A stretch of DNA of 50,527 nucleotides from Kaiparowitsia implicata GSE-PSE-MK54-09C (GTDB lineage Bacteria > Cyanobacteriota > Cyanobacteriia > Elainellales > Elainellaceae). The translations under genes and the position numbers were made by a program. Position 1 is the first letter of the stretch. Every line of letters begins with the position of its first letter. Of the stretch, positions 20,117 to 46,962 are shown one piece after another. Below the pieces are notes generated by a model that searched no databases, was not told the DNA's origin, and worked only from the letters and a program-made list of their open reading frames with translations. The stretch spans positions 1 through 50,527 of the forward strand of contig JAHHHI010000060.1 in the NCBI GenBank assembly GCA_019359435.1, read 5' to 3'.

Positions 20117-22474
20117 TCATTCGATCCGCGCGGAGCGCAGCCGAAGCGAATTTCCGATGACGCTGACCGAGGAAAGCGCCATGGCCGCGGCAGCAATCGC
20201 CGGAGACAAGGTCAATCCAAAGAACGGGTAGAGCACGCCGGCGGCCACCGGGACCCCCGCGGCATTATAGGCGAAGGCAAAGAACAGGTTCTGGCGGATA
20301 TTGGCCATGGTTGCCTGCGACAGGGCGCGAGCCTTGACGATGCCCATCAGGTCGCCGTTGAGCAGCGTGACGCCAGCGCTTTCGATGGCGACATCGGTGC
20401 CAGTTCCCATGGCAATGCCGACATCGGCCGCGGCAAGCGCCGGGGCGTCATTCACGCCGTCTCCAGCCATCCCAATGATACCACCCTGTTCGCGCAAGCG
20501 GTTGACGACCTCGCTCTTGCGCTCCGGCAGGACGTCCGCTTCCACGGCCTCGATGCCCAGTTTGCGGGCGACGGCATCGGCGGTTACCTTGTTATCGCCC
20601 GTCATCATGACGACCTTGATACCCTGCAGTGCAAGCTCTGTCAGGGCAGCTGGGGTGGTCAGGCGAATGGGGTCGGAAATCCCGATGACTCCGGCGAGGC
20701 GCTTGTCGATGCCTACCAGAATCGCTGTAGCGCCATCGGCGCGAAGCGCATTGGCACGATCCGTCCAGGTGTCCGTGTCGATGCCCATGGATTTGAGGTA
20801 TTTAGCACTACCGATGTGCAGTTGCTGCCCCTCGACCATTCCGGTGAGGCCCTTGCCGACAGGCGAGTCCACGTCCGTTGGGTCCGAGAGGGTCAGGCCG
20901 CGCTCCTTGGCCGCGTTGATAATGGCGAGGCCCAGAGGATGCTCGCTTGCCCGCTCGAGGCTCGCCGCAAGGCGGAGAAGGCTTTCCTCGCCGCCGTCGT
21001 TTGCGGGAATGATGGCCGTGACGGCCGGCTTGCCCTCGGTGAGCGTGCCGGTCTTGTCGACCACCAGGGTGTCTACCTTTTCCAACCGCTCCAGAGCCTC
21101 GGCATTCTTGATCAGCAGACCGAGAGTGGCACCCTTGCCGACGCCGACCATGATGGACATCGGCGTCGCCAGGCCCAGCGCACAGGGACACGCAATGATC
21201 AGCACCGAAACCGCTGCCACCAGACCATAGGCCAGGCGCGGCTCGGGGCCCCAGATGCCCCAGGCGATGAAGGCGACGATCGCAATGCCGATCACCAGCG
21301 GCACGAACCAGCCGGACACCTGGTCGGCGAGCTTCTGGATCGGCGCCCGTGAGCGCTGGGCCGCGGCCACCATCTGGACTATCCTCGATAGCAAAGTGTC
21401 CTGGCCGATCTGCACCGCTTCCATCACCAGTCCACCGGACTGGTTGATCGTGCCACCGATCAGTCGATCGCCAACTTCCTTGGTGACGGGCATGGATTCT
21501 CCGGTGACCATGGATTCATCAAGCGCACTGCGGCCCTCGACGACCTTGCCGTCGACGGGCACCTTTTCGCCCGGCCTTACCCGCAAGCGATCGCCGACAA
21601 TGATCATTTCGATGCCGACTTCTTCATCCGATCCATCGGCGCCAATACGCCGCGCCGTCTTGGGCGCAAGATCCAACAAGGCCTTGATGGCCCCGGATGT
21701 CTGTTCGCGCGCCCGCAGTTCGAGCACCTGACCGAGCAGGGCCAACGCGGTGATCACGGCAGCCGCTTCGAAATAAACTGGCACCGCCCCACCCATGCCG
21801 CGCATGTCAGCCGGGAAGATGCCAGGCAGGACAGTAGCGATGACGGAGTAGAGCCAGGCCACGCCAATGCCCATGGCGATCAGGGTGAACATGTTGAGGC
21901 TGCGGTTGACCACGGACGCGGCCCCACGCTCGAAGAACGGCCAACCGGCCCAGAGCACCACCGGCGTGGCCAGGACCAATTGAACCCAGTTCAGGTTCTG
22001 CGGCGATATGAAGGCATGGAAATTGAAGAGATGGCTGCCCATCTCCAGCAGGAACACCGGCACCGCCAACGCCGTGCCGATCCAGAAACGCCGGGTCATG
22101 TCGACCAGTTCGGCGCTTGGACCAGTCTCGGCGGTCGGCATCTCCGGCTCCAGCGTCATGCCGCAGATCGGGCAGTTACCGGGATGATCCTGGCGGATCT
22201 GGGGGTGCATCGGACAGGTATAGACCGTGCCGGGAGCCGCCGCGGGTGGCGGCGCTTCCGCCTTGACGAGGTAGGCGGCAGGGTCGGCCACGAACTTGTC
22301 GTGGCATTTGGCAGAGCAGAAATAGAATGTGTCGCCTGCATGCTTGGCGCTGAATTTGGCCGTGGCGGGATCGACCGACATACCGCAGACCGGATCCTTC
22401 GCCTGGTGCCCGGCATGGGTCTTAGGCTGGGCGTGGTGATCATGATGTTGGGGCGTATCGGTGGTGCCGCTCAT
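20117..22474 (-). CDS. copA: Cu(I)-exporting P1B-type ATPase with YHS and metal-binding N-terminal domains
   Basis: This 785-residue inner-membrane pump exports Cu(I) from the cytosol. A His-rich start is followed by a YHS domain (residues about 26-69, [10 protein letters not shown]) and a YTCPMHP...CPICGMTL heavy-metal-binding motif (85-108). There is no classical HMA domain. Catalytic parts are the TGE motif near 324-326, the CPC metal site at 429-431, the phosphorylated Asp473 in DKTGTLTEG and GDGVND at 671-676. The YHS-plus-YTCPMHP architecture is typical of CopA2/SilP-like pumps, some of which also move silver. A MerR-type promoter lies upstream at 22505-22532. A cytochrome c and DUF305 gene follow on the other side. 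Confidence 0.92.
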
Positions 22475-22504
22475 ATCACTGTCCTTTGGTTCGATCGCCG
22501 AAGT

Positions 22505-22532
22505 GTGCGCCTTCCCACCGTGACAAGGTCAA
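22505..22532 (-). promoter_or_regulatory. MerR/CueR-type promoter of copA
   Basis: Read on the minus strand, TTGACC (22532-22527) is followed by a dyad with arms ACCTT and GAAGG over the spacer, 31 bp before the copA start. This is the layout bound by CueR/HmrR regulators. Confidence 0.75.
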
Positions 22533-22660
22533 GCCCTTTCGTCACTTCGTCGTCATCCGCTCAGCTGCGCTCGTCAGACCGACTTGTGGAGGGTATTCTC
22601 AGACGTTGGTACCTTGGAGTTCGGCGAATGGATTCGCGCATCCCTGGAGTCAGTTGCCCA

Positions 22661-23050
22661 ATGAACCTCCTGCTGGCGCTGACTGTGACGATCTTTGCGG
22701 CGAGTACAGCACTGGCGCAACCGGCACAGCCTGACGGTGAGGCGCTCTACCTGGAGTATTGCGCCAGTTGCCACGGCGCCAACCTCGAGGGCCAGCCCAA
22801 CTGGATGGAGCGGCTGCCGAGCGGACGATTGCCGGCGCCGCCCCATGATGAGACGGGACATTCCTGGCACCATTCCGACGAGCAACTGCTCAGGATCGTG
22901 CGCGATGGCCTGGCTGCCATAGCCCCCGGATACCAAACGGACATGCCCGCATTCCGGGGAACGCTCAGCGACCAGGAGATCGTGGAAATCCTCGACTACA
23001 TTAAACAAACCTGGCCCGATCGCGAGCGGGAGGTGCAGCGGAGCCGATGA
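22661..23050 (+). CDS. Exported c-type cytochrome
   Basis: The 129-residue protein has a signal peptide (MNLLLALTVTIFAASTALA) and one haem site CASCH at residues 28-32. A WHHSDEQLLRIVRDG helix and YQTDMPAFRGTLSDQE follow, where the Met of TDMPAF is the probable sixth haem ligand. This class I mono-haem cytochrome type recurs in copper-resistance islands. The ATG at 22661 is preferred since it begins the signal peptide; an in-frame ATG at 22628 adds 11 unrelated residues. It is divergent from copA. A close but frameshifted relative lies at 31.1-31.4 kb. Confidence 0.85.
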   Translation: MNLLLALTVTIFAASTALAQPAQPDGEALYLEYCASCHGANLEGQPNWMERLPSGRLPAPPHDETGHSWHHSDEQLLRIVRDGLAAIAPGYQTDMPAFRGTLSDQEIVEILDYIKQTWPDREREVQRSR

Positions 23051-23150
23051 TCTCCCTCGCACCTCGGCTCTATGCAAGGCGCTTCTGACCCGACCACGGG
23101 CAAAGCCGGACAAAGTCTGGCACGCATCCATCGTCATCTGGTCATAATGG

Positions 23151-23174
23151 AAAAGGGGCGCCGAAGCGCCCCTT
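23151..23174 (-). terminator. Rho-independent terminator after the DUF305 gene
   Basis: On the minus strand a 9-bp GC-rich stem (AAGGGGCGC/GCGCCCCTT) closes a UUCG tetraloop and runs into TTTT, just past the DUF305 stop at 23193. It also lies downstream of the convergent cytochrome gene. Confidence 0.8.
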
Positions 23175-23192
23175 AGGTCTTGCCAGTCCAGC

Positions 23193-23654
23193 TTACTTTG
23201 CGGCGGCCTGTTCTTCGAGCCACGCCAACATCTCGACGATCTCGGCCTCCTGGGCGCCGATGACCTTCAGCGCCATCGCTTTGGCCCACTCGTCGTTGCC
23301 ATGCGCCAGTTCGGCCTTGGCCATGCTGATCGCACCCTGATGGTGCGGGATCATCCCGCAGACAAAGGCCACATCGATGTCCTCAGCCTTGGCCCCGGTC
23401 ATCATGTCCCGGTTCATGGCATCCATGCCGGCCATCATGTCGGCATGGGCCTGGTCCATGTCCGGGTCCATGGCCATTGGCATCATCGGCGCCTCGCCGC
23501 CCGATTTACAGATCTCGGGAAGGATCGAGGCGACTTCGCCGCCCATGGCGGCCATGTCGTGACCGGGCATGGCGTCCTGGGCTGACGAAGAGGCAACCGT
23601 GCCGGCCAGTAGCGCGAAGGTAAGCAGTGCAGTCTTGAAGGTGTGCATTTTCAT
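23193..23654 (-). CDS. Exported DUF305 (ferritin-fold) protein with Met-rich segment
   Basis: The 153-residue protein has an N-terminal signal (MKMHTFKTALLTFALLAGT). A Met/His-rich stretch follows (MPGHDMAAMGG; EAPMMPMAMDPDMDQAHADMM), then the DUF305 core [20 protein letters not shown], with the conserved M-I-P-H-H-Q-x-A motif. DUF305 proteins are periplasmic and accompany copper genes; the Met/His clusters suggest Cu(I) binding. The start at 23654 follows an AGGA ribosome-binding site. A paralogue lies at 47.0-47.4 kb beside the second Cu module. Confidence 0.85.
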   Translation of the reverse strand: MKMHTFKTALLTFALLAGTVASSSAQDAMPGHDMAAMGGEVASILPEICKSGGEAPMMPMAMDPDMDQAHADMMAGMDAMNRDMMTGAKAEDIDVAFVCGMIPHHQGAISMAKAELAHGNDEWAKAMALKVIGAQEAEIVEMLAWLEEQAAAK

Positions 23655-23694
23655 TGTCCTGATTGGTGGCATCAAGGGCTTGCGCCCGACTCAG

Positions 23695-24054
23695 TCAGGT
23701 CAATTTCGGAGGGCGGTCCACTCCTGCATTGGCCCAGCGAAGCGCGATCTCGAAGGGATGGTGCGGATAGGCGGAGAACAGCGACACGCGGGTGGAGGCG
23801 CATGGAGGCGCGGGCAAAGGGACACCGCAATGGCCCAAACCGCAGCAACTGACCTGACCCTCGTGATGCCCCCGGCAATCCTCGCCCGGGCAATTATGCG
23901 CGGCGAGCACACTGGCAGCATGCGCCTGGGTGTCCAATTGTGCGGCATGGCCGGCATGGTGGGAAATCATGCTGAACACGACAAACATCGTCAGGGCAAC
24001 GAACCGCCGGATCGTTCCCCAAGGCGCTGTCGCATTTTTGGCAGGGCTCTGCAT
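23695..24054 (-). CDS. Small exported Cys/His-rich hypothetical protein
   Basis: The 119-residue protein has one N-terminal hydrophobic segment (RRFVALTMFVVFSMISHHA), then a Cys/His cluster: NCPGEDCRGHHEGQVSCCGLGHC. It ends in an RPPKLT motif, resembling the E/R-RPP endings of other small proteins in this island (412-690 and 35114-35440). It lies upstream of the DUF305 gene on the same strand. A periplasmic metal-binding role is plausible, but the family is not characterised. Confidence 0.6.
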   Translation of the reverse strand: MQSPAKNATAPWGTIRRFVALTMFVVFSMISHHAGHAAQLDTQAHAASVLAAHNCPGEDCRGHHEGQVSCCGLGHCGVPLPAPPCASTRVSLFSAYPHHPFEIALRWANAGVDRPPKLT

Positions 24055-24112
24055 GGTTGGCTAACTCAAGGTGGGAGCCGACGGTTCCCTCATTCGCAGG
24101 ACCAGGAGTGTG

Positions 24113-24634: not shown

Positions 24635-24748
24635 TTCCGAACACTCCGTCCAAAGCTGTTCCATACGGAATGTCGGCGGGTGGACAGTCATCCAGTTTCA
24701 GAACATTTGTTCGGTAACGGATATCTTGTCCGTCATCAAGGATCAGTC

Positions 24749-25216: not shown

Positions 25217-25243
25217 GCAGACGAACAACCGAACCGTGCTGAG

Positions 25244-25277: not shown

Positions 25278-25284
25278 GGGTAGC

Positions 25285-25485
25285 TTAGGTTCGAAGTTGC
25301 CCGGTATAGCCGGCATCTTCGATTGCCTGGGCGAACCGCTCGACCGGCTCGTCACTCTCGATCTTCACGGCGAGCGAACCTAGATCGATGTCGACTTTGG
25401 CGGCAGCGTCGACGCTTTTCACCGCCTTCTCGACCGTGGCCACGCAGTGCGAGCAGGTCATGTCGCTGACTTGGAAATTGTACAT
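25285..25485 (-). CDS. copZ: CopZ-like HMA-domain copper chaperone
   Basis: This 66-residue cytosolic chaperone consists of one HMA domain. The metal site is MTCSHC at residues 9-14 and the domain ends EDAGYTGQLRT. It would bind Cu(I) and deliver it to CopA or to CueR. The frame is open upstream into a broken MFS gene, but a strong MerR-type promoter ends about 25 bp before the ATG at 25485. An independent start there is therefore much more likely than a real MFS-HMA fusion. Confidence 0.85.
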   Translation of the reverse strand: MYNFQVSDMTCSHCVATVEKAVKSVDAAAKVDIDLGSLAVKIESDEPVERFAQAIEDAGYTGQLRT

Positions 25486-25507: not shown

Positions 25508-25547
25508 GATGCACCTAATCTGGAGCTTCCAACAATGGGAAGGTCAA
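25508..25547 (-). promoter_or_regulatory. MerR/CueR-type promoter of copZ
   Basis: On the minus strand TTGACC (25547-25542) is followed by a perfect 5-bp dyad CTTCC-N7-GGAAG (25542-25526). The 19-bp spacer leads to CAGATT as -10. The dyad position and spacer length are classical for CueR/HmrR. Confidence 0.85.
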
Positions 25548-25548
25548 G

Positions 25549-31052: not shown

Positions 31053-31425
31053 TCATCGGCTTTGCTGGATGTTACGTTCGCGCTCCGGCCAGGTGCCCTT
31101 GGTGTAGTCCAGGATCGCCTCGATCTGGGCATCGTCGAGAACGCCGGCATAGGCCTGCATATCGGTTTCGTAGCCTGGCGCGAGGGCGACCAGCCCTTCC
31201 TTTACGATGCGAAAGAGCTGTTCATCCGAATGATGCCAGGTGTGTCCCGTTTCATCGTGCGGCGGCGCCGGCAGCCATTGGGCAGGCGCTGCCGTCAGTC
31301 CGGTTGCTCCTGGAGGTTCGCACCGTGGCAACTGGCGCAGAACCGTCCATCTCTTGCGGCATTCCTGCTAAGGCGGACGCCGACCAGAGCGCAAGCCTAA
31401 GCGCCGCTGCCCTACGCATGGTCAT
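31053..31425 (-). pseudogene. Exported c-type cytochrome, frameshifted
   Basis: Three frames make up one protein closely similar to the cytochrome at 22.7 kb. They are a signal peptide (MTMRRAAALRLALWSASALA), the haem site GRFCASCHGANLQEQPD, and the C-terminal part PAPPHDETGHTWHHSDEQLF through DMQAYAGVLDD. Frameshifts lie near 31355 and 31295. The start ATG overlaps the MerR stop (TGATG), so the gene was co-transcribed with the regulator. Decay or sequencing error cannot be separated from the sequence alone. Confidence 0.8.
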
Positions 31426-31844
31426 CAATGCTCTGACCGACAGTGGCTGTGATCGGCCAGAGCTTCGATGATGCGGCAATCGCAGACGCGGCCATGTCCA
31501 CATTCATCCACCATCCGGGAGAGTTCTGCCTTGAGGGCCGTCAGGCTGGCGATGCGGCGGTCGATTTCAATCAGATGGTTGTTGGCGATGCTGTCGACTT
31601 GGTGGCAGGACGATTGCGGCTGGGCTGCCATGGCCAGCAATTCGCGGATGTCGTCGATCTCAAAGCCGAGTTCGCGCGAATGGCGGATGAAATTGAGGCG
31701 ATCGACTTCGGACTTGCCATACAGTCGGCGGTTGCCTTCCGTCCGCGGTGCTTCCGGCAGCAGACCGATCTGCTCGTAGTAGCGGATCGTGGGCACTTTG
31801 ACAGCGGTCTGGCGCGACAGCTCACCAATTGGAAATTTCATCAT
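31425..31844 (-). CDS. MerR-family regulator, ZntR/CadR/PbrR type
   Basis: The 139-residue protein begins MMKFPIGELSRQTAVKVPTI with the MerR HTH (RYYEQIGLLPEAPRTEGNRR), followed by the long dimerisation helix. The metal loop has a Cys near 78 (SSCHQV) and a C-terminal CGHGRVCDCRII...HSHC cluster, as in sensors of Zn, Cd or Pb. The start at 31844 or 31841 follows a GAGGCG site. It is divergent from a P-type ATPase with the proper dyad between them, so it is the direct activator of that pump. Confidence 0.88.
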   Translation of the reverse strand: MMKFPIGELSRQTAVKVPTIRYYEQIGLLPEAPRTEGNRRLYGKSEVDRLNFIRHSRELGFEIDDIRELLAMAAQPQSSCHQVDSIANNHLIEIDRRIASLTALKAELSRMVDECGHGRVCDCRIIEALADHSHCRSEH

Positions 31845-31852
31845 GACGCCTC

Positions 31853-31883
31853 TTGCTTCTCTAGTGGCTAGAGGAAGTAGCAT
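31853..31883 (+). promoter_or_regulatory. MerR-type divergent promoter of the Zn/Cd/Pb ATPase
   Basis: TTGCTT (31853-31858) and TAGCAT (31878-31883) form -35 and -10 boxes with a 19-bp spacer. The spacer holds a perfect dyad CTCTAG-TGG-CTAGAG. The CTCTAGTGGCTAGAG core resembles known CadR/PbrR operators and differs from the CTTCC/GGAAG copper sites elsewhere in this window. Confidence 0.85.
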
Positions 31884-31911
31884 CGTACGGAATCGAATGG
31901 AAGGACCGGCA

Positions 31912-37043: not shown

Positions 37044-37067
37044 GGTCGGCCGATGCATCGGCCGACC
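37044..37067. terminator. Perfect 24-bp palindrome between convergent genes
   Basis: GGTCGGCCGATG is followed directly by its reverse complement. It lies between the HMA gene (plus, ends 37026) and the reductase gene (minus, stop at 37067-37069). It is most likely a two-way terminator, although a protein-binding palindrome is possible. Confidence 0.6.
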
Positions 37068-38026
37068 TAGAACCTGTCAGCAAGGATATCGTCGCACCCC
37101 AGGCCGCGCACCATTTCGGACATCGACGTTACGAAACCTGCCGGCCCGGCAATATGCACGGACCAGTTGCGCAACTGGGAGATGCAGGAAGCGATCAGGG
37201 TCTGGGGCGTCGCATCCTCGTGCATGGCCCGCGTGACGATTGACCGATAGCCTAGATTGCTGTGCCTGGCGGCCAACTCAGCGAAGTGGCGATCGAGATA
37301 TAGGTGCTGGGTCTCGCGAGCGAATGCGAAGATCCGCACCGCCCGCTGGTCGCCGCTGGCCAATAGGCCATCCACGATCGACTTGATGGGCGCCTGCCCC
37401 GTGGAGGCGGCAAGGGCAAGAAGTGGCCTATCCTGGTCGCCGCGGAAGCACGCGTCGCCGAAGGGACCCGCAAGCTGGATACGGTCGCCGATCGAAAGCC
37501 CAGCAACAAGAGAACTGGCCTGCCCGCCAGCCACCACTCTGATGTGGAACTCGACGTCCTGCGCCATCGGTTGGCTCGCGGGTGAATAGCTCCGGGTGAC
37601 GCCGCCGGGCAGAGTGATGTTGACGTATTGCCCGGGAAGGAATGACAGCGGCTGTGACGGCCGAACCAGGAGTCGTTGGATCTGGGGCGCGATCTCGTGC
37701 CGAGCCACCACAACGGCGTCGATGGGCGGCATCGGCGGCAAGGCCCCGACCGCGTCGGGCCAATACACGGTGACGTCGGAGGTCGGTACCGCCCGACAGG
37801 CCAGGACCAGGCCCTCGGTACGCTCGGGCGCTTCCAGGGCGAAGGGGGAATGCGCCAGCATCTCGACCTTGCCTTGCAGCAGCCGGGACTTGCAGGAACC
37901 GCAGCGGCCCCTTTGGCATCCATGAGGATAGGCCAGCCCCTCGCGCAACGCCGCCGCCAGGATGGTTTCACCTGGCAAGGCTATGATGGCACTAGCCGCC
38001 TGCGGAAAAAGGATGAGGTGCGCCAA
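37067..38026 (-). CDS. [2Fe-2S] ferredoxin-NAD(P)H oxidoreductase
   Basis: The 319-residue protein has an N-terminal plant-type [2Fe-2S] domain with CQRGRCGSCKSRLL and a later VLACRA cysteine. A flavin domain (RSYSPASQP, the R-x-Y-S motif) and an NAD(P)-binding domain (LLALAASTGQAPIKSIVDG) follow. This is the order of phenol hydroxylase or CDP-6-deoxyglucose (AscD-like) reductases, which pass electrons to an oxygenase or other partner. No oxygenase is nearby. It lies 2 bp after a glutaredoxin under a CueR-type promoter, so a redox repair role under copper stress is a fair guess. Confidence 0.85.
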   Translation of the reverse strand: MAHLILFPQAASAIIALPGETILAAALREGLAYPHGCQRGRCGSCKSRLLQGKVEMLAHSPFALEAPERTEGLVLACRAVPTSDVTVYWPDAVGALPPMPPIDAVVVARHEIAPQIQRLLVRPSQPLSFLPGQYVNITLPGGVTRSYSPASQPMAQDVEFHIRVVAGGQASSLVAGLSIGDRIQLAGPFGDACFRGDQDRPLLALAASTGQAPIKSIVDGLLASGDQRAVRIFAFARETQHLYLDRHFAELAARHSNLGYRSIVTRAMHEDATPQTLIASCISQLRNWSVHIAGPAGFVTSMSEMVRGLGCDDILADRF

Positions 38027-38028
38027 GT

Positions 38029-38295
38029 CTACGCTCCTCGCGGCAGCGAGAGAAGATCGGCCAGCGTCGGGCGCTGGGAGGCGAAGGTGCCATAGGACAC
38101 GTTGGTGCCGATGACCGTGATCGGCGCTACCCGCACGCCGGTTCGTGCCTTTGCCTCCTCGGCCACCGCTGGATCGGTCAGATCCCGTTCGGTGAAGGGG
38201 ACCCCCCTTGAAGTCAGCCAGGCCTTGAGTTGGCGGCAGTCAGGGCATGTGGGTGTCGTGAAGATTTCGACATCGGGGAATTCGGTGTTGGCCAT
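38029..38295 (-). CDS. Glutaredoxin-like protein
   Basis: The 88-residue thioredoxin-fold protein carries EIFTTPTCPDCRQLKAWL with a C-P-D-C active site, then the cis-Pro strand VRVAPITVIG. The ATG at 38295 is preferred, as upstream residues overlap the MerR-type promoter. It is translated just before the [2Fe-2S] reductase, which might reduce it or act on the same substrate. The C-P-D-C motif differs from the classical C-P-Y-C of glutaredoxins and occurs in NrdH/MauE-like and other variant forms. Confidence 0.82.
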   Translation of the reverse strand: MANTEFPDVEIFTTPTCPDCRQLKAWLTSRGVPFTERDLTDPAVAEEAKARTGVRVAPITVIGTNVSYGTFASQRPTLADLLSLPRGA

Positions 38296-38321: not shown

Positions 38322-38354
38322 ACGGGGTGCGGCTTCCAACGCTGGTCAAGTCAA
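38322..38354 (-). promoter_or_regulatory. MerR/CueR-type promoter of the glutaredoxin-reductase pair, degenerate
   Basis: On the minus strand TTGACT (38354-38349) and GGAAGC have exactly the same spacing as in the copZ promoter. The left half-site is poorly matched (TGACC in place of TTCC). It overlaps the end of the 56-residue gene. Confidence 0.6.
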
Positions 38355-38359
38355 GGGCG

Positions 38360-38530
38360 TTACCCCAGACGTCGACCGATCAGTTCTTCGCCGAGGCCAA
38401 TGTCGCGCCGAAGATGCGCACTGGTCGGCGCGGCCTTGGGGCGACGTGAGCGGATGGGCGCAAGCAAGCGCTGCAGCCAGTTCGGTCGTGCCAGAGGTGA
38501 CCTGAGATAGAATTCGTAGTCTTCGATCAT
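38360..38530 (-). CDS. Small 56-residue basic protein, DUF1127-like ending
   Basis: This short gene reads MIEDYEFYLRSPLARPNWL, then an Arg-rich middle and HLRRDIGLGEELIGRRLG. The LRRDIGLGE end recalls the DUF1127 signature (L-x-D-I-G-L), but the N-terminal half differs. An AAGGAG site lies 8 bases before the ATG. It is between the MFS gene and the glutaredoxin gene on the same strand and probably shares the MFS transcript. Function is unknown. Confidence 0.55.
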   Translation of the reverse strand: MIEDYEFYLRSPLARPNWLQRLLAPIRSRRPKAAPTSAHLRRDIGLGEELIGRRLG

Positions 38531-38588: not shown

Positions 38589-40004
38589 TCAGCCGACTGG
38601 GACTTCGCGCTGCGGCGCGGAGCCACTCACGAAGACCAGTGTCGCCGCTGCGCCGAGGAAGGCTGCCACCGCGGCACCGAAGAACGCCGTCTGGAAGCCG
38701 GGCAGCAGGGCTGCCGTTTCGGCTCCGCCATGCGGCGCGACCGAGGCCGCCAGGGCCACCATGACGGCCAGGCCCACGGCGGACCCGACTTGGTAGGTGG
38801 TGTTGATGAGGCCCGAGGCGAGGCCGGTTTCTTCCGGCTTGGCGCCGGACATTCCGGACATGGTGGCGGGGATGTAGGCGAGAGCCATGCCGAGCGCGGC
38901 CAGTAGCGAGGCCGGCAGGACGTTGACCAAGAAGCTTCCGTCCGTGGGCAGGTTTGCGAACAGGAGCAGTGCCGCGCCCATCAGCAATAGGCCGATGATC
39001 AGATTGGCCTTGGGGCCGAACCGGCCGATGAGGCGGCCTGAGAACCCGACCATCACGACCATGATCATCACAGTCATCGGCAGTAGGGCCAGACCGCTGG
39101 AAAGGGCGGAGAGACCCAGGATCTGCTGCAGATAGAGGTTCAGGAAGAACCAGAGCGGGATCCAGGCAGCACCGAGCAGTGCCATGACCAGATTTCCTGC
39201 GGCAAGGTTCGGTGCCTTGAAGATGGCCAGCGGCAGCAGCGGTTCGCGGCGGGCCGCCTGGATCACGAGGAAGATCACCAGCAGAATAGCGGCAACGGCG
39301 AGCAGAATGAGGATCTGCGCCGAGGCCCAACCCACCGTCTCGGCCGTAACGATGGCATAGACCAAGGTGACGAGAGCGCCAGTAACGGTGATGGCGCCAA
39401 ACCAATCGACGCGGCCAATGCTTCGCGGAGACTTCCGCAAGACGGCCGGAATCAGGGCCAAGACCAGAAGACCAAGCGGCACGTTGATGAGGAAGGTCCA
39501 GGGCCAGGCGAGCCACTCGGTGATCACGCCACCGAGGAACACGCCAGCCGAGCCGCCCGCAGCAGCGGCAGCGCCCCAGAAGCCGAAGGCCTTGCCGAGT
39601 TCGGCACCATTGTGAGCGAAGAGGCGCATCACGATGGTGAGGGCTGAGGGAGCGATCAGTGCGGCACCGACACCTTGCAGTGCCCGGCCGGTCAGCAGCA
39701 GTTCCTGGCTGTTGGCGAGGCCGGCAAGCAGGGATGCGGCGGTGAGGATGACGAAGCCCGTGGTGAAGATGCGACGGGCGCCGAAGAGGTCACTGAGACG
39801 ACCGCCGAGCAGCAGCAGGCCGCCGAAGGCGATGACATAGGCGTTGAAGATCCAGCTAAGGCCGCCCGGGCTGAAGCCCAATTGGGTCTGGATCGCCGGC
39901 AGGGCGACGCCGATGATCGAAGTATCGAGGATGACGATGAATTGGGCGGCGCAAAGCAGCGCGAGCGCCAGCCACCTCTTGGGATCGGGTCTAGAGAGTT
40001 CCAT
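38589..40004 (-). CDS. DHA2-type MFS multidrug transporter
   Basis: The 471-residue protein has 14 predicted helices. The EmrB/QacA signature is clear: DTSIIGVALPAIQTQLGFS near the start (motif D1), GGRLSDLFGARRIFTTGF (motif A) and GAALIAPSALTIVM. These drug:H+ antiporters export hydrophobic toxic compounds through the inner membrane. It lies under a MerR-type promoter, next to CueR and upstream of a glutaredoxin and reductase, which suggests copper-induced expression. A decayed fragment of a relative is at 17.3 kb. Confidence 0.88.
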   Translation of the reverse strand: MELSRPDPKRWLALALLCAAQFIVILDTSIIGVALPAIQTQLGFSPGGLSWIFNAYVIAFGGLLLLGGRLSDLFGARRIFTTGFVILTAASLLAGLANSQELLLTGRALQGVGAALIAPSALTIVMRLFAHNGAELGKAFGFWGAAAAAGGSAGVFLGGVITEWLAWPWTFLINVPLGLLVLALIPAVLRKSPRSIGRVDWFGAITVTGALVTLVYAIVTAETVGWASAQILILLAVAAILLVIFLVIQAARREPLLPLAIFKAPNLAAGNLVMALLGAAWIPLWFFLNLYLQQILGLSALSSGLALLPMTVMIMVVMVGFSGRLIGRFGPKANLIIGLLLMGAALLLFANLPTDGSFLVNVLPASLLAALGMALAYIPATMSGMSGAKPEETGLASGLINTTYQVGSAVGLAVMVALAASVAPHGGAETAALLPGFQTAFFGAAVAAFLGAAATLVFVSGSAPQREVPVG

Positions 40005-40079: not shown

Positions 40080-40110
40080 CGCCTAAGGCTTCCAACTCTT
40101 GGAGGGTCAA
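40080..40110 (-). promoter_or_regulatory. MerR/CueR-type promoter of the MFS gene
   Basis: On the minus strand TTGACC (40110-40105) is followed by CTCC-AAGAGTT-GGAAG with the same spacing as in the copZ promoter, then TAGGCG. The left arm has one mismatch (CTCC for TTCC). Confidence 0.75.
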
Positions 40111-40216
40111 GAGCCAAAATGGAGGTGTTTGCGGGAAAATGAACCTGACCCCGGTGGCGGCACTGAACAACGACGGGAAGCGTCGTCCATCAGCCGACCA
40201 GCAGTGGAGGAAATGC

Positions 40217-40266: not shown

Positions 40267-40731
40267 CTAGCCGGCGTGCGCCCGATCCGGCGCGATGTCA
40301 GTGACGCCAAAGCGCGGTTGCCGTTTCTTCGGTTCCGGCGCTGCCGCCGAGGCGAACCCTTCGATGATCGGGCAGTCGGGCCGCCCGTCGCCATGGCAGT
40401 TGTTTGCGAGATGACGCAGGGTGTCGCTCATTGCCTTGAGCGCTCTTGCCTTCTCGTCGAGGACGCGGATGTGCTCGAGGGCGATCTCCTTGACGTCTGC
40501 ACTTGCCCGGGACCGGTCCCGCCAAAGCGCCAGGAGACTGTTCATCTGATCGACCGAGAAACCGAGATCCCGCGCCTGGCTGATGAAGCGAAGAGCATGA
40601 ATTTCGTTTTCGGAGTAGACCCGGTAGCCGGACTCAGCGCGCAGCGGCGACTTTATGAGGCCGATGGACTCGTAGTAGCGGATCATCTTGGTGGAGACGC
40701 CGCTTGCCTTGGAAGCTTCGCCAATGTTCAT
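40267..40731 (-). CDS. cueR: CueR/HmrR-type copper-responsive MerR regulator
   Basis: The 154-residue protein begins MNIGEASKASGVSTKMIRYY with the MerR HTH, then the SPLRAESGYRVYSENE wing and a long dimer helix. The metal loop NNCHGDGRPDCPII has the two Cys spaced as in CueR/HmrR (C-x7-C), which give linear Cu(I) binding. The protein activates promoters by distorting a 19-bp spacer. It is the only clear CueR in the window, while several copper promoters carry matching dyads. Its own promoter at 40887-40917 carries one as well. Confidence 0.92.
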   Translation of the reverse strand: MNIGEASKASGVSTKMIRYYESIGLIKSPLRAESGYRVYSENEIHALRFISQARDLGFSVDQMNSLLALWRDRSRASADVKEIALEHIRVLDEKARALKAMSDTLRHLANNCHGDGRPDCPIIEGFASAAAPEPKKRQPRFGVTDIAPDRAHAG

Positions 40732-40856
40732 GATGCAGGCTCCAGAAGGGTCGAACCAGGTGAGGAGGAGGCACGCGACGTGCGCGCCTCGAGGGTGAAT
40801 TCAAGGGGTCCTGCTACGGGCGGGACGGGCCCGATATGGGATGTCGGAAAGCGCAT
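40728..40856 (-). CDS. 42-residue leader open frame coupled to cueR
   Basis: ATG at 40856 follows a GAAGGA site and lies just downstream of the MerR-type promoter. The frame runs MRFPTSHIGPVPPVAGPLEF through a Ser-rich end, and its TGA overlaps the cueR start (ATGA). No family is recognised. It may be a translated leader that couples to cueR, or chance. Its codons are unremarkable, and no Cys/Met metal motif is present. Confidence 0.35.
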   Translation of the reverse strand: MRFPTSHIGPVPPVAGPLEFTLEARTSRASSSPGSTLLEPAS

Positions 40857-40886: not shown

Positions 40887-40917
40887 GTGATAGTCCTTCC
40901 AACGATTGTAAGGTCAA
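40887..40917 (-). promoter_or_regulatory. MerR/CueR-type autoregulated promoter of cueR
   Basis: On the minus strand TTGACC (40917-40912) and TATCAC (40892-40887) are spaced by exactly 19 bp. The spacer holds CCTTACAATCGTTGGAAGG. This is the best -10 among the copper promoters in the window. Confidence 0.85.
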
Positions 40918-41423
40918 GCGTTATTGTCGGCGTCGCTGTTGAGCAGGTTCCAGCCGTATCGAGTGAGGCCGCGCGGCTTGTAGACGGAGAGCGCAGCCGC
41001 AAGCAGCAGCACTATGAGCCCGCCACCTGCATGCAGGACGGTGGAGAAACGGGCCGACGTCCATTCAGTAGCGTCAAGAGTTTTGGGCGGAAGTGCGGAG
41101 AGCAGCCGAATGGAGTCGGTCTGCAACAGGAGGACCACGAGCGCCAGCACCGTCAGGGCCAGCTTGATAACGATCCAATAGTGCCTGAACAGCCCCCACG
41201 GGGTTGCCAGCGACTGCAGAACGCCGATCAGGAGGCCTGCCCAGGCCAACGGGATGATTGAATAGGTCGTGATAAGGTCCATCGCCTGGTAGACGGTCGA
41301 TTCTCTGGCGCCCAAGCCGACAACCGCAAGCACCAAGAAGGCCGCCACGGCGCCCAGCATGCCAACAGAGCTGACGATATGTATTGTCAGCAACATCTTG
41401 CGCAGCGGCCCCCCGATCGTCAT
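40914..41423 (-). CDS. DUF2269-like integral membrane protein
   Basis: The 169-residue protein from the ATG at 41423 has four membrane helices: RKMLLTIHIVSSVGMLGAVAAF, TTYSIIPLAWAGLLIGVLQS, HYWIVIKLALTVLALVVLLL and GGGLIVLLLAAALSVYKPRG. The conserved His in the first helix (T-I-H-I) and W-G-L-F-R-H-Y-W are typical of DUF2269/YndJ-like proteins. Its start overlaps the upstream 62-residue gene (ATGA). The pair is divergent from a TetR gene that likely represses it. Function unknown. Confidence 0.75.
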   Translation of the reverse strand: MTIGGPLRKMLLTIHIVSSVGMLGAVAAFLVLAVVGLGARESTVYQAMDLITTYSIIPLAWAGLLIGVLQSLATPWGLFRHYWIVIKLALTVLALVVLLLQTDSIRLLSALPPKTLDATEWTSARFSTVLHAGGGLIVLLLAAALSVYKPRGLTRYGWNLLNSDADNNA

Positions 41424-41673: not shown

Positions 41674-41706
41674 AGTCGGCGCCGTTCCCTCTGGATTAAG
41701 GTGGTC

Positions 41707-42312
41707 ATGCCGAAGCTCTGGACCAACACCATAGAAGCCCACAAGCAGTCCGTGAGGGACGCGGCGCTCGACGCGGCGGCCTCCTTGGTCCTGCGACGCG
41801 GCCTGGCCGCCGTCACTATGTCCGAGATCGCCCAAGAGACGGGGATCGGTCGCGCCACGCTTTACAAGTACTTCCCAGACGTTCAGGCGCTGGTCCGTGC
41901 CTGGCACGAACGTCAGATCGGTAGGCACCTGACGACACTGGTTGCTATTGCCCATGGCCAAGGACCACCGCTCAATCGCCTTGATGCGGTCCTGCGGGCA
42001 TATGCGGGGATGGCGCACTCCCACCAGGAGGGCGAACTCGCCAGCATGCTGCACGCGGGTGGCCACGCGGCGCACGCCTTGGACCACCTCTCTACTTTCG
42101 TTTCCTCGATCATCACTGAAGGCGTTGCGGCGGGTGAGGTGCGCGAGGACGTGCGGGCTAAGGAACTGGCGACATTCTGTCTGGCCGCGATGTCCGGCGC
42201 CCGTGGCCTCGGGTCCGATGCCGCAGTCGTCCGACTGGTAGCGCTAACGCTAGATGCGCTTCGGCCCGGGTCGTCGACGGGAGGATCCGAAGGAACGAAA
42301 AGGGCCCCCTGA
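41707..42312 (+). CDS. TetR-family transcriptional regulator
   Basis: The 201-residue protein has the TetR HTH: RDAALDAAASLVLRRGLAAVTMSEIAQETGIGRATLYKYF. The ligand domain has VLRAYAGMAHSHQEGEL and a His-rich patch (MLHAGGHAAHALDH). The ATG at 41707 leaves the palindrome outside the gene. It is divergent from the DUF2269-like pair, its probable target. Its 3' end overlaps a copper promoter belonging to a copZ remnant, so the native C-terminus may have been replaced. Confidence 0.85.
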   Translation: MPKLWTNTIEAHKQSVRDAALDAAASLVLRRGLAAVTMSEIAQETGIGRATLYKYFPDVQALVRAWHERQIGRHLTTLVAIAHGQGPPLNRLDAVLRAYAGMAHSHQEGELASMLHAGGHAAHALDHLSTFVSSIITEGVAAGEVREDVRAKELATFCLAAMSGARGLGSDAAVVRLVALTLDALRPGSSTGGSEGTKRAP

Positions 42313-42339
42313 CCTTCCTGCGGTGGGAAGCCCCAATTG
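42309..42339 (+). promoter_or_regulatory. MerR/CueR-type promoter left before the copZ remnant
   Basis: CTGACC (42309-42314) is followed by a perfect CTTCC-TGCGGTG-GGAAG dyad (42314-42330). The sequence then runs directly into copZ coding DNA, so the leader and first codons are deleted. Confidence 0.7.
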
Positions 42340-42501: not shown

Positions 42502-42559
42502 CCGTCACGAGCGCCAGGACGGCGCTCAGGATACCAGTCCACTCGTAGAATGCCGGCAC
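42488..42559 (-). pseudogene. C-terminal fragment of the TetR-linked membrane protein
   Basis: PAFYEWTGILSAVLALVTVISTG on the minus strand closely matches AFYEGTGILSAILALLTVIATG of the membrane protein at 24.7-25.2 kb. Only this helix remains. It abuts and slightly overlaps the copZ remnant in convergent orientation, the same order as at 25.2 kb. Confidence 0.75.
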
Positions 42560-42565
42560 CCCCTC

Positions 42566-43984
42566 CTAGACGTAGACCAACTCCGACATCATGCCGGTCG
42601 CCATATGGTAGAGGTTGTGGCAGTGATAGAGCCACCGCCCTGGATTGTCGGCATCGAAGGCCACTGTGACCGAGGCCATGGCAGGGACCAGGACAGTGTC
42701 GCGGACCGCTCCGGTAAGCGTCTGGCCGTTGATGTCGACCACCTGAAAATGGTGCCCATGCAGGTGCATGGGATGAGCCATCATCGAGTGGTTCATGAAC
42801 TGGAGTTCGACCCGCTGACCGGCCGAGACCTTGGGCTTGCGCCGGGTCCCCCAGGGCTGGTCGTCCAGGCTCCACAGGTAGGGAGACATCGAGCCGCCTA
42901 ACATCACCGAATGGCGTACATCGGGTGCTCTTGAGACGAGTGGGGAGTTCGACCGCAGGCGCGCTTCCAGTGACATGTCGATTGGGCCAGCCGCGACGTC
43001 GGCAATGCCGGCGAATTTCGGAATCTCGGCTCCGGGCGCCGCCAGGATCACGCCGGTTCGGACCCGGTCGCCCTCCCGCTGGGCGAAAACGGGGACGACC
43101 GCCCGGGCAGGCACGTCCACCAGCAGGTCAATGCGCTGCGCCTGGGCCAGCGGGAAACGGTTGCCGGCAACCGGCTCGACCGGATTGCCGTCGACCGCGA
43201 TGACGGTCGCCTGGTTTTCGCCCAGTTCCAGCCAGAAGGCGGTCGAGGCGCCGCCGTTGATGACCCGGAGGCGAACGCGCCCGCTCCGCTCGGTCCTGAC
43301 CACGAACGGGTCATCAAGAGTTCTGTCATTGGCCAGATAGGCGTCGAACTCAACGTCATTGAGGTCCATCCCGCCCATAGCCATCATCGAATGATCCATC
43401 GCCGCAGGCGCGCCGTGGCCGGCCCCATGATCCATGGTGGAACTACCGGTCAGACCTTCGAGGATTTCCTCCGGGGAGCGGAAGGAAAAGTCGTGCAGCA
43501 GGACGACCACTTCCTGGACGTCCGCACGGACTGCTTCAGCATCCCGCACAATGAGCGGCGCGGCCATCAAGGCCTGCTCCTGCAGGCCGTGATGGGAATG
43601 CATCCAATGCGTGCCCGGCCTGGCAGCGAAGTCGTAGCTTCGGGCTTCCCCCGCTCCGATGGGCCCGACATAGCCTGTTTCGGTGATGCCATCGGCCTCT
43701 GGTGCAGGGACCTGCCCGTGCCAATGGATGCTGGTCGCTTCCGCTGTTCGGTTCTCCAGCGTCACGTCGAACCGTTCGCCCTCATCGAAACGAAGTCCGT
43801 GAGTGCCGTCGGCCCCAGTGAGGCCAAATACGGTCGCGGACCGGCCAAGCACCTCGATCGTCCGGGTTTCGGCCACGAGCAACTGCCCCTGGGCACCGAA
43901 CGCCGAGGGCGGCAGTATTAGGCCGGACGCGCAGAGGGCGGCGGCCGATTTGAGGACGGTGCGGCGGGTTACGGGAAAGGTCAT
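42566..43984 (-). CDS. Periplasmic multicopper oxidase (CueO/CopA-like)
   Basis: The 472-residue protein has a Tat signal (TRRTVLKSAAALCASG) and three cupredoxin domains. Copper ligands are visible: IHWHG (His87, His89), THWMHSHH (129-132), HPMHLHGHHFQ and HCHNLYHM at the C-terminus, making type 1, 2 and 3 sites. A Met/His-rich insert (STMDHGAGHG, MDHSMMAMGGMD) at about 190-215 resembles the Met-rich region of CueO. The enzyme oxidises Cu(I) in the periplasm. It lies under a MerR-type promoter and beside a Cu-ATPase gene. Confidence 0.92.
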   Translation of the reverse strand: MTFPVTRRTVLKSAAALCASGLILPPSAFGAQGQLLVAETRTIEVLGRSATVFGLTGADGTHGLRFDEGERFDVTLENRTAEATSIHWHGQVPAPEADGITETGYVGPIGAGEARSYDFAARPGTHWMHSHHGLQEQALMAAPLIVRDAEAVRADVQEVVVLLHDFSFRSPEEILEGLTGSSTMDHGAGHGAPAAMDHSMMAMGGMDLNDVEFDAYLANDRTLDDPFVVRTERSGRVRLRVINGGASTAFWLELGENQATVIAVDGNPVEPVAGNRFPLAQAQRIDLLVDVPARAVVPVFAQREGDRVRTGVILAAPGAEIPKFAGIADVAAGPIDMSLEARLRSNSPLVSRAPDVRHSVMLGGSMSPYLWSLDDQPWGTRRKPKVSAGQRVELQFMNHSMMAHPMHLHGHHFQVVDINGQTLTGAVRDTVLVPAMASVTVAFDADNPGRWLYHCHNLYHMATGMMSELVYV

Positions 43985-44019
43985 GGTCGAATACCTCGAA
44001 GGATGGGATGCCTGCCGGA

Positions 44020-44051
44020 CCTTGTCCGGCTTGGCCCGGTGGCAAGGTCAA
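44020..44051 (-). promoter_or_regulatory. MerR/CueR-type promoter of the multicopper oxidase gene
   Basis: On the minus strand TTGACC (44051-44046) is followed by CTTGCC and GCCAAG as half-sites. Overlapping the expected -10 is a perfect 7-bp hairpin GCCGGAC-CTT-GTCCGGC at 44014-44030, absent from the other copper promoters. Confidence 0.7.
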
Positions 44052-44094
44052 GCGGTGAAGCACGATGTCCGGCTGCAAGGCCGGCCACCTGTTG

Positions 44095-46608
44095 TCAGTT
44101 CTTTGCAGCCTTGAACGTGCGCAACCGGAGTGCATTGCCCAGAACGAAGACGCTCGAGAGGGCCATGGCGCCCGCCGCGAAGACCGGCGAAAGCAGGATG
44201 CCATGGGACGGGTACAGCACGCCGGCGGCAACCGGGATCAACGCCGTATTGTAGGCGAAGGCCCAGAACAGGTTCTGCCGGATGTTGCCGATGGTGGCCT
44301 TCGACAGGGCTATGGCGTTCGGCACCCCCAGCAGGCTACCGGACATCAGAACGACATCCGCGGCCTCGATGGCGATGTCGGTGCCGGTCCCGATGGCGAG
44401 ACCAACATCGGCTTCCGCAAGTGCGGGGGCGTCGTTGATGCCGTCGCCGACATAGGCGACCTTGCCGTACTGGCTCCTAAGGCGGCGCACCGCGTCGACC
44501 TTGCCGTCCGGCAGCACTTCGGCAACCACTTCATCGATGCCGAGCCGGGCGGCGATCGCTTTGGCCGTGCGAGCGTTGTCGCCGGTGATCATCGCCACCT
44601 TCAGGCCGAGGTCGTGCAAGGCCTTGATCGCCGCAGGCGTGGTTTGCTTGATCGGATCGGCAACTGCGATTACTGCAGCCAGCCTACCGTCAATTGCCGC
44701 GTAGAGCGGAGATTTTCCTTCATTGCCCAGTCGCGAAGCCGTCGAGGCGAACCCGGCGACGTCATAACCCAGCTGGGTCATGTACCGGTCCGCGCCGATC
44801 TCGACACTCTTTCCGGCCACGGTGGCATTGACGCCAAAGCCCGTGACCGACTCGAACGCCGAGACGGTAGGAAACTCGAGACCTTCCTTCTGTGCGGCAT
44901 CCACGATCGCGGAGGCGATCGGATGCTCCGACTTGGCTTCGACGGCGGCAACGAGACCGAGGACCGTGGCCCGGTCGAAGCCGATCGCCAGTTCGAGGTC
45001 GGTCAAAGCCGGCTTGCCTTCCGTCAACGTACCGGTCTTGTCGACCGCAACGACCTTGGCATCCTTGAGCAACTGCAGCGCCTCACCCTTGCGGAACAGC
45101 ACGCCGAGTTCAGCTCCCCGTCCCGTTCCGACCATGATCGAGGTCGGCGTAGCGAGGCCCATAGCGCACGGGCAGGCAATAATGAGGACCGCAACGGCAT
45201 TCACCAGGGCGAATGACAGCGCAGGGGACGGACCGAAGACGAACCATGCCGCGAAAGTGAGGGCAGCTACTGCAAAGACCGCGGGCACGAACCACATGGT
45301 GATCTTGTCGACCACAGCCTGGATCGGCAGCTTTGAGCCCTGAGCTTCCTCGACCATGCGGATGATCTGGGCCAGCACGGTGTTGCCGCCCACAGCAGTC
45401 GCCTTGAATGCGAAGGCGCCCTTCTGGTTGATGGTGCCGCCCACCACTTCAGATCCCGAGGACTTCGCGACAGGTATCGGCTCGCCGGTGATCATGGATT
45501 CGTCGACATAGCTGTCGCCTTCGACCACTTCGCCGTCCACGGGGATGCGGTCGCCGGGGCGGACTTCAATAATGTCACCCGAAACCACGTCGTCGATGGC
45601 GAGATCGATCGCCTTGCCGTTCCTCCGCACGCGGGCCGTCTTGGCCTGAAGCCCAACCAGCCGTTTGATCGCTTCGGAGGTGCGGCCCTTGGCCTGAGCC
45701 TCGAGCAAACGTCCCAGCAGGATCAGAGTAACGATGACCGCTGCCGCCTCGAAATAGACGTTGACCGTGCCGGCAGGCAGGAAGCCAGGAGCGAACGTGG
45801 CCACCAGCGAATAGCCATAGGCCGCCAGCGAGCCCACCGCGACCAGCGAGTTCATGTCGGGCCCGAGCCGCCACAGGGCCGGGAGCCCCTTCTCGAAGAA
45901 GCGGATGCCGGGGATGAACAGAACAAGCGTCGTCAGGACGAACTGGAAATACCAGCTTGCCTGCATGCCGACCGTGGAGGCGATAAGGTCATGCGCGCCC
46001 GGGATGAGGTGCGAGCCCATCTCGAGGGCGAACACCGGTGCGGTAAGGAGTGCGGCGAAGGTGAAGTCGCGCTTGAGTTCGCGCTGTTCGGTTTCCTTCC
46101 GCTCTGCTCGCTCGTCGGCTTCCGTCCGCCCCGAGGCTCCGACTGTGCCGCCGACCGGCTTGGACTCGTATCCGGCATCGGCGATTGCCTTGACCAGGGA
46201 TGCGACGTCAGCGTTGCCATGAATGGTGGCACGCTCCGTCGCCAGGTTCACCGAAGCGCCGGTGACACCATCCACGGCCCTGAGTGCACGCTCGACGCGA
46301 CCCACGCACGAGGCGCAGGTCATGCCCTCGATGGCGAGCTCGACGGAGGATGCAGGGCTGGCTGCGAAGCTCGAAGATACGCTGTAGCCGGCTTTCTCGA
46401 CAGCTTCGACGAGCCTTGCACGGTCCACGGTCGAAGCGGCCGTGATGCTTGCGCGCTCAGTCGCCAGATTCACCGACACGGCGACCACGCCAGAAACCGC
46501 CTTGATGGCCTTTTCTACGCGACCCACGCAAGAGGCGCAGGTCATGCCTTCGATCGGCAGGGAAATCGCCGCGGACGTCATGTCGGCAGCTCGAACAGGG
46601 GCATTCAT
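44095..46608 (-). CDS. copA: Cu(I)-exporting P1B-type ATPase with two HMA domains
   Basis: This 837-residue inner-membrane pump has two HMA domains, each with GMTCASC (residues 21-27 and 95-101). TGEP lies near 375, the CPC site at 479-481, Asp523 of DKTGTLTEG follows, and a late [14 protein letters not shown] closes the P-domain. This is the standard Cu(I) efflux ATPase architecture, distinct from the YHS-type pump at 20.1 kb. The ATG at 46608 is used because upstream codons lie in the promoter. It is divergent from an HMA chaperone and a DUF305 gene under mirrored MerR-type promoters. Confidence 0.93.
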
Positions 46609-46650
46609 TGCCGTCTCCTTCTCGTTCAGAATTCTTGTTCGAACGGAAAG

Positions 46651-46730
46651 TGGGGCTTCCAGCCGTGGGAGGGTCAAGGCGTTGTTTTGTTTTATTTCGC
46701 CCCTTGACCCTCCAACGGCTGGAAGCCCCA
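46651..46730. promoter_or_regulatory. Mirror-image pair of MerR/CueR-type promoters
   Basis: A 29-bp sequence at 46651-46679 recurs inverted at 46702-46730 with one mismatch, around a 22-bp T-rich centre. Each arm carries TTGACC (minus 46677-46672; plus 46704-46709), then CTCC...GGAAG half-sites. The left arm faces the Cu-ATPase gene and the right arm faces the HMA chaperone and DUF305 genes. Confidence 0.88.
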
Positions 46731-46767
46731 TCTAGTGGTGCATGAGACACAAACACAGGAGATTCTC

Positions 46768-46962
46768 ATGCAGTTGCGTATCGAAGACATGACTTGCGGC
46801 GGTTGCGCCAAGTCGGTCACCGCCGCCATCAACTCGGTTGATATAGGTGCCAAGGTGGAGGCCAACCCGGCAGCCCGCACGGTCAAGGTCGAAACATCGG
46901 CGTCGGAAGACCAGATCCTGAAGGTTCTTGACCAAGCCGGATATCCGGCAACCGTCAGCTGA
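46768..46962 (+). CDS. copZ: CopZ-like HMA-domain chaperone
   Basis: The 64-residue protein begins [20 protein letters not shown], giving one HMA domain with MTCGGC at residues 8-13, and ends [10 protein letters not shown]. The AGGAGA site lies 6 bases before the ATG. It is under the right-hand mirrored promoter and divergent from the Cu-ATPase it probably serves. It differs clearly in sequence from the CopZ at 25.3 kb, so the two chaperones belong to separate lineages. Confidence 0.88.

Follow-up and report, generated by a model that had tools for sequence, protein, structure and literature searches.

CueR-type promoters of a probable Devosia copper-resistance island appear to include those of a DHA2-type exporter and a glutaredoxin-reductase pair

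The copper island and its promoter boxes

The stretch of DNA examined here (the window: 50,527 nucleotides, positions 1 to 50,527 of contig JAHHHI010000060.1, from the assembly GCA_019359435.1 deposited for the cyanobacterium Kaiparowitsia implicata GSE-PSE-MK54-09C) harbors a copper-resistance island together with a gene for CueR, a Cu(I)-responsive regulator of the MerR family. A previous, sequence-only reading of this DNA had proposed that one CueR may command a dispersed regulon of at least seven promoters, and that the presence in such a regulon of a drug-type major facilitator superfamily (MFS) exporter and of a glutaredoxin/[2Fe-2S] reductase pair would be unusual. The analysis described below indicates that a CueR regulon including the MFS and glutaredoxin units is well supported, by the quality of their sites and by conservation in relatives, and that command by a single CueR is unlikely.

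The cueR gene (40267-40731, minus strand) encodes a protein that scores 173.9 bits against the TIGR02044 model (cut-off 147.4), and its translation contains S77, C112 and C120, which we take to be the serine that replaces a cysteine of +2 sensors and the two cysteines of the metal loop. The island also encodes two P1B-type copper ATPases, recognized by profile matches, of which copA1 (20117-22474, minus strand) carries YHS and HMBD domains and copA2 (44095-46608, minus strand) carries two HMA domains, as well as two HMA-domain copper chaperones identified in the same manner (copZ, 25285-25485, minus strand; copZ2, 46768-46962, plus strand) and a multicopper oxidase (MCO; 42566-43984, minus strand; PF07731, PF07732 and PF00394). 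The glutaredoxin-like protein (grx; 38029-38295, minus strand; PF00462, 51.4 bits) displays a CPDC motif, and the accompanying reductase (37067-38026, minus strand; PF00111, PF00970 and PF00175) has the [2Fe-2S]/FAD/NAD(P)H architecture of BenC, its best NCBIfam model, for which it falls under the cut-off. The predicted DHA2-type MFS exporter (38589-40004, minus strand) matches PF07690 and scores 229.6 bits against TIGR00711 (cut-off 230.2).

Boxes of the CueR type were located by a pattern search of the whole assembly and by a position-matrix scan of the window, using a matrix trained on 28 distinct boxes (five of them from the window) that precede copA, copZ, cueR or mco genes, with no MFS or grx box among them. 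Ten sites were found in the window, nine of them near named promoters. Five were recovered by both methods before the classical copper genes: copA1 (22511-22533, minus strand, 31.2 bits), copZ (25526-25548, minus strand, 36.9 bits), cueR (40896-40918, minus strand, 38.1 bits), copA2 (46656-46678, minus strand, 31.3 bits) and, divergent from the latter, copZ2 (46703-46725, plus strand, 31.4 bits). Three sites outside the training set were likewise recovered by both methods, before the MFS (40089-40111, minus strand, 29.1 bits), the grx-reductase pair (38333-38355, minus strand, 22.5 bits) and a copZ remnant recognized by eye (42308-42330, plus strand, 22.0 bits). The earlier reading had named all eight of these promoters, and had suggested the construction of such a matrix; when 40 Markov-1 simulations of the window were scanned in the same way, none produced a match above 15 bits, and the mean number above 13 bits was 0.075.

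The last two sites, also outside the training set, depart from that description. A CueR-type box does exist before the oxidase, at a position (44030-44052, minus strand) close to, but other than, the one first given; its second arm is degenerate (GGCCAAG), it scores 18.8 bits as compared to 29-38 bits for the strong sites, and it was detected by the matrix, the pattern search not extending to it. The corresponding box scores 29.1 bits at locus L097 and 18.3 bits at locus L024. The tenth site (9439-9461, plus strand, 22.0 bits), which had been overlooked, enlarges the proposed set; it lies 48 nucleotides before an open reading frame (ORF) at 9510-9842, has half-site arms that (like those of the MCO site) are degenerate by matrix scoring, and can be aligned with the MCO promoter over the box and further out, such that it is probably a copy of that promoter. 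No Pfam model matches the ORF at 9510-9842, and the gene of a second MFS is found at 9995-11131.

Across the assembly, the pattern search with up to three mismatches returned 14 matches, versus five for the reversed pattern, and six of the seven matches with two or fewer mismatches fell on the contig of the window. The same pattern, applied at up to three mismatches to 24 related genomes (those carrying a relative of the window MFS), gave 238 matches on both strands, versus 49 for the reversed control; the former total includes opposite-strand shadows of a palindrome. Some of the matches with two or three mismatches recur with identical sequence in several genomes (for example, CTTGAACTT(C/G)GCCTGGTTGGAAG), and were set aside as conserved coding sequence. 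Within 30 fetched regions, which form a biased sample because they were picked around listed matches, 43 of 50 boxes precede a gene of a copper family; the remaining seven comprise three opposite-strand shadows, one box before a glutaredoxin-MauE gene, and three unassigned boxes at L141, L145 and L153:9990.

Promoter geometry

Published CueR/HmrR operators consist of the half-sites ACCTTCC...GGAAGGT within a promoter spacer of 19 base pairs, and by their sequence the window sites match both the geometry and the half-site reported by Permina et al. (PMC1526738). The -35 element of the window sites is TTGACC, with the exceptions of TTGACT before grx and CTGACC before the copZ remnant. The spacer was also examined without assuming its length, in 79 distinct strong boxes from the window and the fetched loci: with 19 base pairs, 99% of them have A as the second base of the -10 element, and none of the other lengths between 15 and 23 base pairs gives more than 38%. 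At the 19-base-pair position that A is kept in all ten window sites, in keeping with the fixed spacing proposed earlier, and also in all 24 of the MFS promoters from Pseudomonadota that are described in the next section; the -35 element of those promoters is TTGAC(C/T) in 23 cases and TTGTCC in the remaining one (L049). The -10 hexamer as a whole is fair at copZ, copA2, copZ2, cueR and copA1, and poor at the MFS, grx, MCO and 9439 sites.

Conservation of the exporter and glutaredoxin promoters

Relatives of the window MFS were collected with their flanking DNA, and the best 80 of 156 were used, corresponding to 24 loci from Pseudomonadota and 56 from other groups (Bacteroidota, Bacillota, Chloroflexota and archaea). 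In 23 of the 24 Pseudomonadota loci, the 300 nucleotides preceding the MFS start contain a box above 15 bits; in every one of the 24, the highest-scoring box is located 53-84 nucleotides before that start and outscores all 200 shuffled versions of its own sequence. None of the 56 loci from the other groups reaches 1 bit in the same 300 nucleotides (the highest value being 0.7); the low GC content of the Bacteroidota and Bacillota loci depresses matrix scores, an effect controlled by the per-locus shuffles. In a maximum-likelihood tree, the Pseudomonadota MFS sequences form one side of a single branch with support of 100/98, and a CueR-like gene with at least 50% identity accompanies 21 of the 24 loci. 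Judged by this phylogenetic footprint, the MFS is well supported as a long-standing, fixed member of the CueR regulon, as opposed to a stray one. The inclusion of a drug-type MFS is thus upheld as to the target, and less so as to its being without parallel, given the precedent of the CueR-controlled pump MexPQ-OpmE.

A similar footprint was obtained for the glutaredoxin. Among the 17 grx copies found in the 24 loci, seven have a box of their own and seven appear to share an operon with a boxed copA that precedes them; the grx pair is accordingly also a well-supported member of the regulon by its pattern of conservation, while the supposed singularity of such a target is diminished by a precedent in Bordetella. 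In genome G002, a separate gene of 264 amino acids with Pfam glutaredoxin and MauE domains is preceded by a CueR-type box (L149:3425; G002:C51:61402). A further ORF of 56 amino acids lies between the MFS and grx genes of the window (38360-38530, minus strand); it is without a Pfam match, and only a few bases separate its end from the grx box.

Origin of the contig and the regulators that serve its sites

The rpoB gene of the assembly is a 1121-amino-acid open frame, on a contig with 53% GC over a 3-kb stretch, and its best matches are the PDB chains 8syi, 8h3v and 8gzg (1100-1132 amino acids), which are presumably cyanobacterial. The window has a GC content of 62.4%, and three metagenome-assembled genomes, labelled Hyphomicrobiales, Alphaproteobacteria and Devosia, encode MFS proteins 96-99% identical to the one of the window. 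Taken together, these features suggest that the assembly is mainly cyanobacterial and that the contig of the window is most likely a Devosia contaminant; a 16S search of the assembly gave no match. An assembly-wide scan was consequently rejected as a decisive test of the whole regulon, since most of the assembly appears not to be DNA of the host. Two other contigs (C67 and C73) have about 60% GC in the parts that were inspected, and are probably Devosia-like contaminants too. An isolated box with two mismatches is found on the first of these (G000:C67:35281-35303), where it lies downstream of a cytochrome c-like ORF similar to the one at 22700-23050 of the window.

The notion of a single CueR in command of every site derives from the presence in the window of a single CueR above the TIGR02044 cut-off, and it draws some further support from the remainder of the assembly, in which the MerR matches look unlike CueR (a judgment made without scores against the CueR model). 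Those matches were each rejected as users of the boxes: the contig of one (C10) has 53.6% GC in a 3-kb stretch and is probably from another organism, the 135-amino-acid frame of another (C73) runs off the contig end, and the third (C92) is below the cut-off. With the contig a likely contaminant, however, the absence of another CueR from this assembly says nothing about a host whose chromosome is largely missing from it. All 24 related genomes encode at least one CueR above the cut-off and 21 encode at least two, including the three closest (G001, G002 and G024, with three, two and two, respectively), while only G015, G019 and G020 have a single one. In the fetched regions, the second CueR type has a nearly identical helix-turn-helix and adjoins a boxed copA of its own, the boxes being similar. 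Command by a single CueR is therefore unproven and, as far as the comparison of genomes can indicate, unlikely; in the host, the sites are probably served by the CueR of the window together with a second CueR encoded elsewhere.

The statement that only one CueR-like protein is visible had also passed over a second MerR-family regulator in the window (31425-31841, minus strand; Pfam MerR domains), which adjoins a P-type ATPase gene (31789-34068, plus strand) and appears CadR/ZntR-like, scoring 111.6 bits against TIGR02044 (below the cut-off of 147.4) and 111.2 bits against TIGR02047 (cut-off 151.45). As a metal-type regulator in the same window, this protein might be imagined to drive a subset of the boxes; that idea is very improbable, because the matrix scan found nothing above 7.2 bits near its gene, and because the boxes agree with the CueR/HmrR consensus and lie before copper genes.

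Assembly of the island

Between the cueR box and the cueR gene lies a 42-amino-acid leader ORF (40728-40856, minus strand, end points counted by hand) that overlaps the cueR start in an ATGA. The cueR box and the 5' side of the leader align with the copA promoter of locus L023 through the copA start codon, and its 3' end aligns with the copA-cueR junction of the same locus. These alignments suggest that a copA gene was probably lost from a former copA-cueR operon, leaving the leader as a deletion scar and cueR with a box of its own. The scar, the copZ remnant and the apparently copied MCO promoter together give a picture of an island in which boxed cassettes may have been duplicated, moved and lost. 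Two DUF305 proteins are also encoded inside the island (23193-23648, minus strand; 46976-47374, plus strand), and a DUF305-like gene in genome G018 (L155) has a CueR-type box.

The exporter family outside Pseudomonadota

At the 56 loci of other groups, 101 of the 110 genes called at the first and second positions downstream of the MFS were examined (nine short ORFs of 60-97 amino acids being left out), and Pfam models identified an HMA domain in 20 of them and the CsoR family in six. Small custom profiles, each seeded with three tested proteins, matched 27 (HMA) and six (CsoR) of the same neighbors, the Pfam counts being the cleaner ones; in a control of 108 out of 267 distal genes, the custom profiles matched one HMA and one CsoR protein. 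P-type ATPases account for five of the 108 distal genes, which indicates that these loci are copper-rich in general.

In all 11 Bacillota loci (L045, L046, L074, L077, L080, L081, L083, L084, L095, L098 and L099), the MFS is preceded by a promoter of the form TTGACA-(N)-TATA(C/G)T, in which the spacer of about 15-16 nucleotides contains a G-tract (TAGGGTAGGGG in eight of the 11); at L084 the spacing is 19 nucleotides by the pattern and 15 by eye. This pattern occurs in none of the 69 other loci and in none of 500 shuffles of each locus; it was drawn up after the sequences had been seen, and the 11 loci include several that are nearly identical to one another. An earlier, broader pattern matched six of the 11 Bacillota loci and two of the 69 others. 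A CsoR-family gene lies within two genes downstream in five of the 11 (L074, L080, L083, L095 and L098), and the CsoR-family neighbors carry a Cys and a His-x3-Cys motif; among NCBIfam models RicR matches them best, with 70-74 bits (under the cut-off of 175) for the three that were scored. An inverted-repeat search of four Bacillota loci found no palindrome over the G-tract, apart from a partial one in L095. With the G-tract assumed to have the form of a CsoR operator, the Bacillota MFS promoter looks CsoR-like by analogy. A frequent arrangement in Bacteroidota places the MFS behind genes of about 1034 and 450 residues; at L059, the products of this pair match models of a multidrug-type RND protein (1035 bits, short of the cut-off of 1250) and of TolC; an apparent RND-TolC-MFS row, in many cases followed by an HMA-domain gene, is seen at L059:1469-8007 and at similar loci.

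Within the family, Cys18, Met310, Met315, Met318 and Met373 are kept in at least 95% of 81 sequences. The CueR-linked clade has no Cys or His specific to itself, and a search for clade-specific copper ligands showed only Met382 and Met415 to be enriched (1.00 versus 0.27), a weak signal. The closest solved structures, each over most of the length of the protein, are EfpA (191 bits), a QacA-type antiseptic resistance protein (120.7 bits) and EmrB (111.4 bits).

Proposed mechanism and competing explanations

The reading favored here, to which a probability of about 0.8 is assigned, is that the window contains a copper-resistance island of Devosia, in which CueR operators placed inside 19-base-pair spacers allow Cu(I)-CueR to switch on all of the units. 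The operators, their spacing and conservation, and the gene content were observed directly; CueR binding, copper induction and the MFS substrate are inferred from them. Upon binding Cu(I), CueR would distort each of the promoters, and the distorted promoters would then switch on: (i) the two CopA exporters, the two CopZ chaperones, CueR itself and the multicopper oxidase; (ii) the glutaredoxin and [2Fe-2S] reductase pair, which may provide cytosolic thiol repair; and (iii) the DHA2-type MFS, probably an exporter acting under copper stress. A second CueR probably shares the sites.

Several observations weigh against this reading. The 24 MFS relatives are not independent, as they share common ancestry and some are nearly the same DNA, and the MFS box at L049 is weak (10.2 bits). 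The grx copy at L028 has no box, and none is visible at L033 or L037, where copA is cut by the edge of the locus; the reductase is boxed via an operon in only four of seven copies, and the multicopper oxidase in only five of ten (three directly and two via an operon). In the window, one arm of the MCO box is lost, and the remaining -10 bases are poor at the MFS (TAGGCG), grx (CACCCC) and MCO (GACAAG); in most of the MFS relatives the -10 element is GC-rich, and in many it resembles GACxxC. With such poor hexamers, activation at these promoters is no more than probable, and the boxes of the MFS, grx and MCO genes might be bound without activation, either as repress-only sites or as decaying ones; repress-only CueR sites without a promoter have been proposed for Vibrio cholerae by Permina et al. 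(PMC1526738). That explanation is considered a poor prospect, in that the second -10 base is kept as A in every one of the MFS promoters at the 19-base-pair position, and their TTGAC(C/T) is maintained, with one exception, across a strongly supported clade. The support for a 19-base-pair spacer was obtained without assuming it, which makes the favored reading somewhat more likely and repression alone somewhat less so. Weak -10 elements are, in addition, common in GC-rich alphaproteobacteria.

The main rival concerning the substrate regards the MFS as a common drug pump that has simply been placed under copper control, in the manner of MexPQ-OpmE (PMC7922089), and it is a serious contender at somewhat below even odds. 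The identity of the nearest solved relatives, the position of the MFS behind a multidrug-type RND and TolC-like protein at the Bacteroidota locus L059, and the lack of Cys or His specific to the CueR-linked clade all agree with it. Less easily accommodated is the recurrence of copper linkage with unrelated sensors (CueR boxes in Pseudomonadota, and a CsoR-like promoter in every Bacillota locus), as is the enrichment of HMA genes beside the MFS elsewhere when compared to distal genes, and the family-wide retention of Cys18 and of four methionines, three of which (Met310, Met318 and Met373) are other residues in EfpA. These latter features lead to a broader proposal, judged to be evenly balanced between true and false, in which the MFS family would represent undescribed copper-stress exporters across Pseudomonadota, Bacillota and Bacteroidota that have been wired independently to unrelated copper sensors or CopZ-like genes, and that may export copper itself, copper in a complex, or a thiol compound damaged by copper. 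Any of those substrates fits the recurring gene company of the family.

Comparison with known systems

Descriptions of CueR regulons usually list a few copper genes. A link of CueR to a DHA2-type exporter and a glutaredoxin throughout a clade would widen the copper response to thiol repair and small-molecule export, and would provide a concrete route whereby copper could co-induce an efflux pump. The appearance of the same exporter family under an apparently different copper sensor in another phylum makes it a testable copper-stress transporter. A literature search by title and the start of the abstract, with most subscription journals outside its scope, returned no DHA2 MFS under CueR or CsoR, and no linkage of such a transporter to two unrelated copper sensors. 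A possible precedent is the MerR-linked MFS of Bacillus (YfmO), which was not found in that search. In sequence, the island MFS resembles EfpA, the QacA-type transporters and EmrB over most of its length, and its family differs from them in its copper-sensor-linked promoters and neighbors, and from EfpA in the methionines described above.

Control by CueR of a drug pump, and of a glutaredoxin enzyme together with a reductase, is already known from Pseudomonas aeruginosa and Bordetella pertussis, respectively. The CueR table for P. aeruginosa has five entries (copZ1, copZ2, copA1, mexPQ-opmE and PA3515-3519; PMC7922089), so that the range of two to four members previously given for known regulons is too low. 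As in the island, those units are dispersed and include a multidrug pump; that pump is a tripartite RND system, whereas the pump of the island is a DHA2-type MFS, and the entries of the table contain no glutaredoxin-[2Fe-2S] reductase pair (PMC7922089). The CueR/HmrR regulons described by Permina et al. in 2006 share with the island their copper exporters, chaperones and multicopper oxidase, and their additional members are a GST, cytochromes and glutaminase/transporter genes; a count over the main text of that study gives zero for each of the terms 'glutaredoxin', 'major facilitator' and 'MFS' (PMC1526738). In B. pertussis, CueR controls a copZ-prxgrx-gorB operon, and thereby joins, as in the island, a copper chaperone, a glutaredoxin-domain enzyme and an NADPH reductase (PMC7794356). 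There, a fused peroxiredoxin-glutaredoxin and a glutathione reductase are encoded in a single copZ operon (PMC7794356), whereas in the island the CPDC glutaredoxin is a protein by itself and has, together with a BenC-like [2Fe-2S] reductase, its own box.

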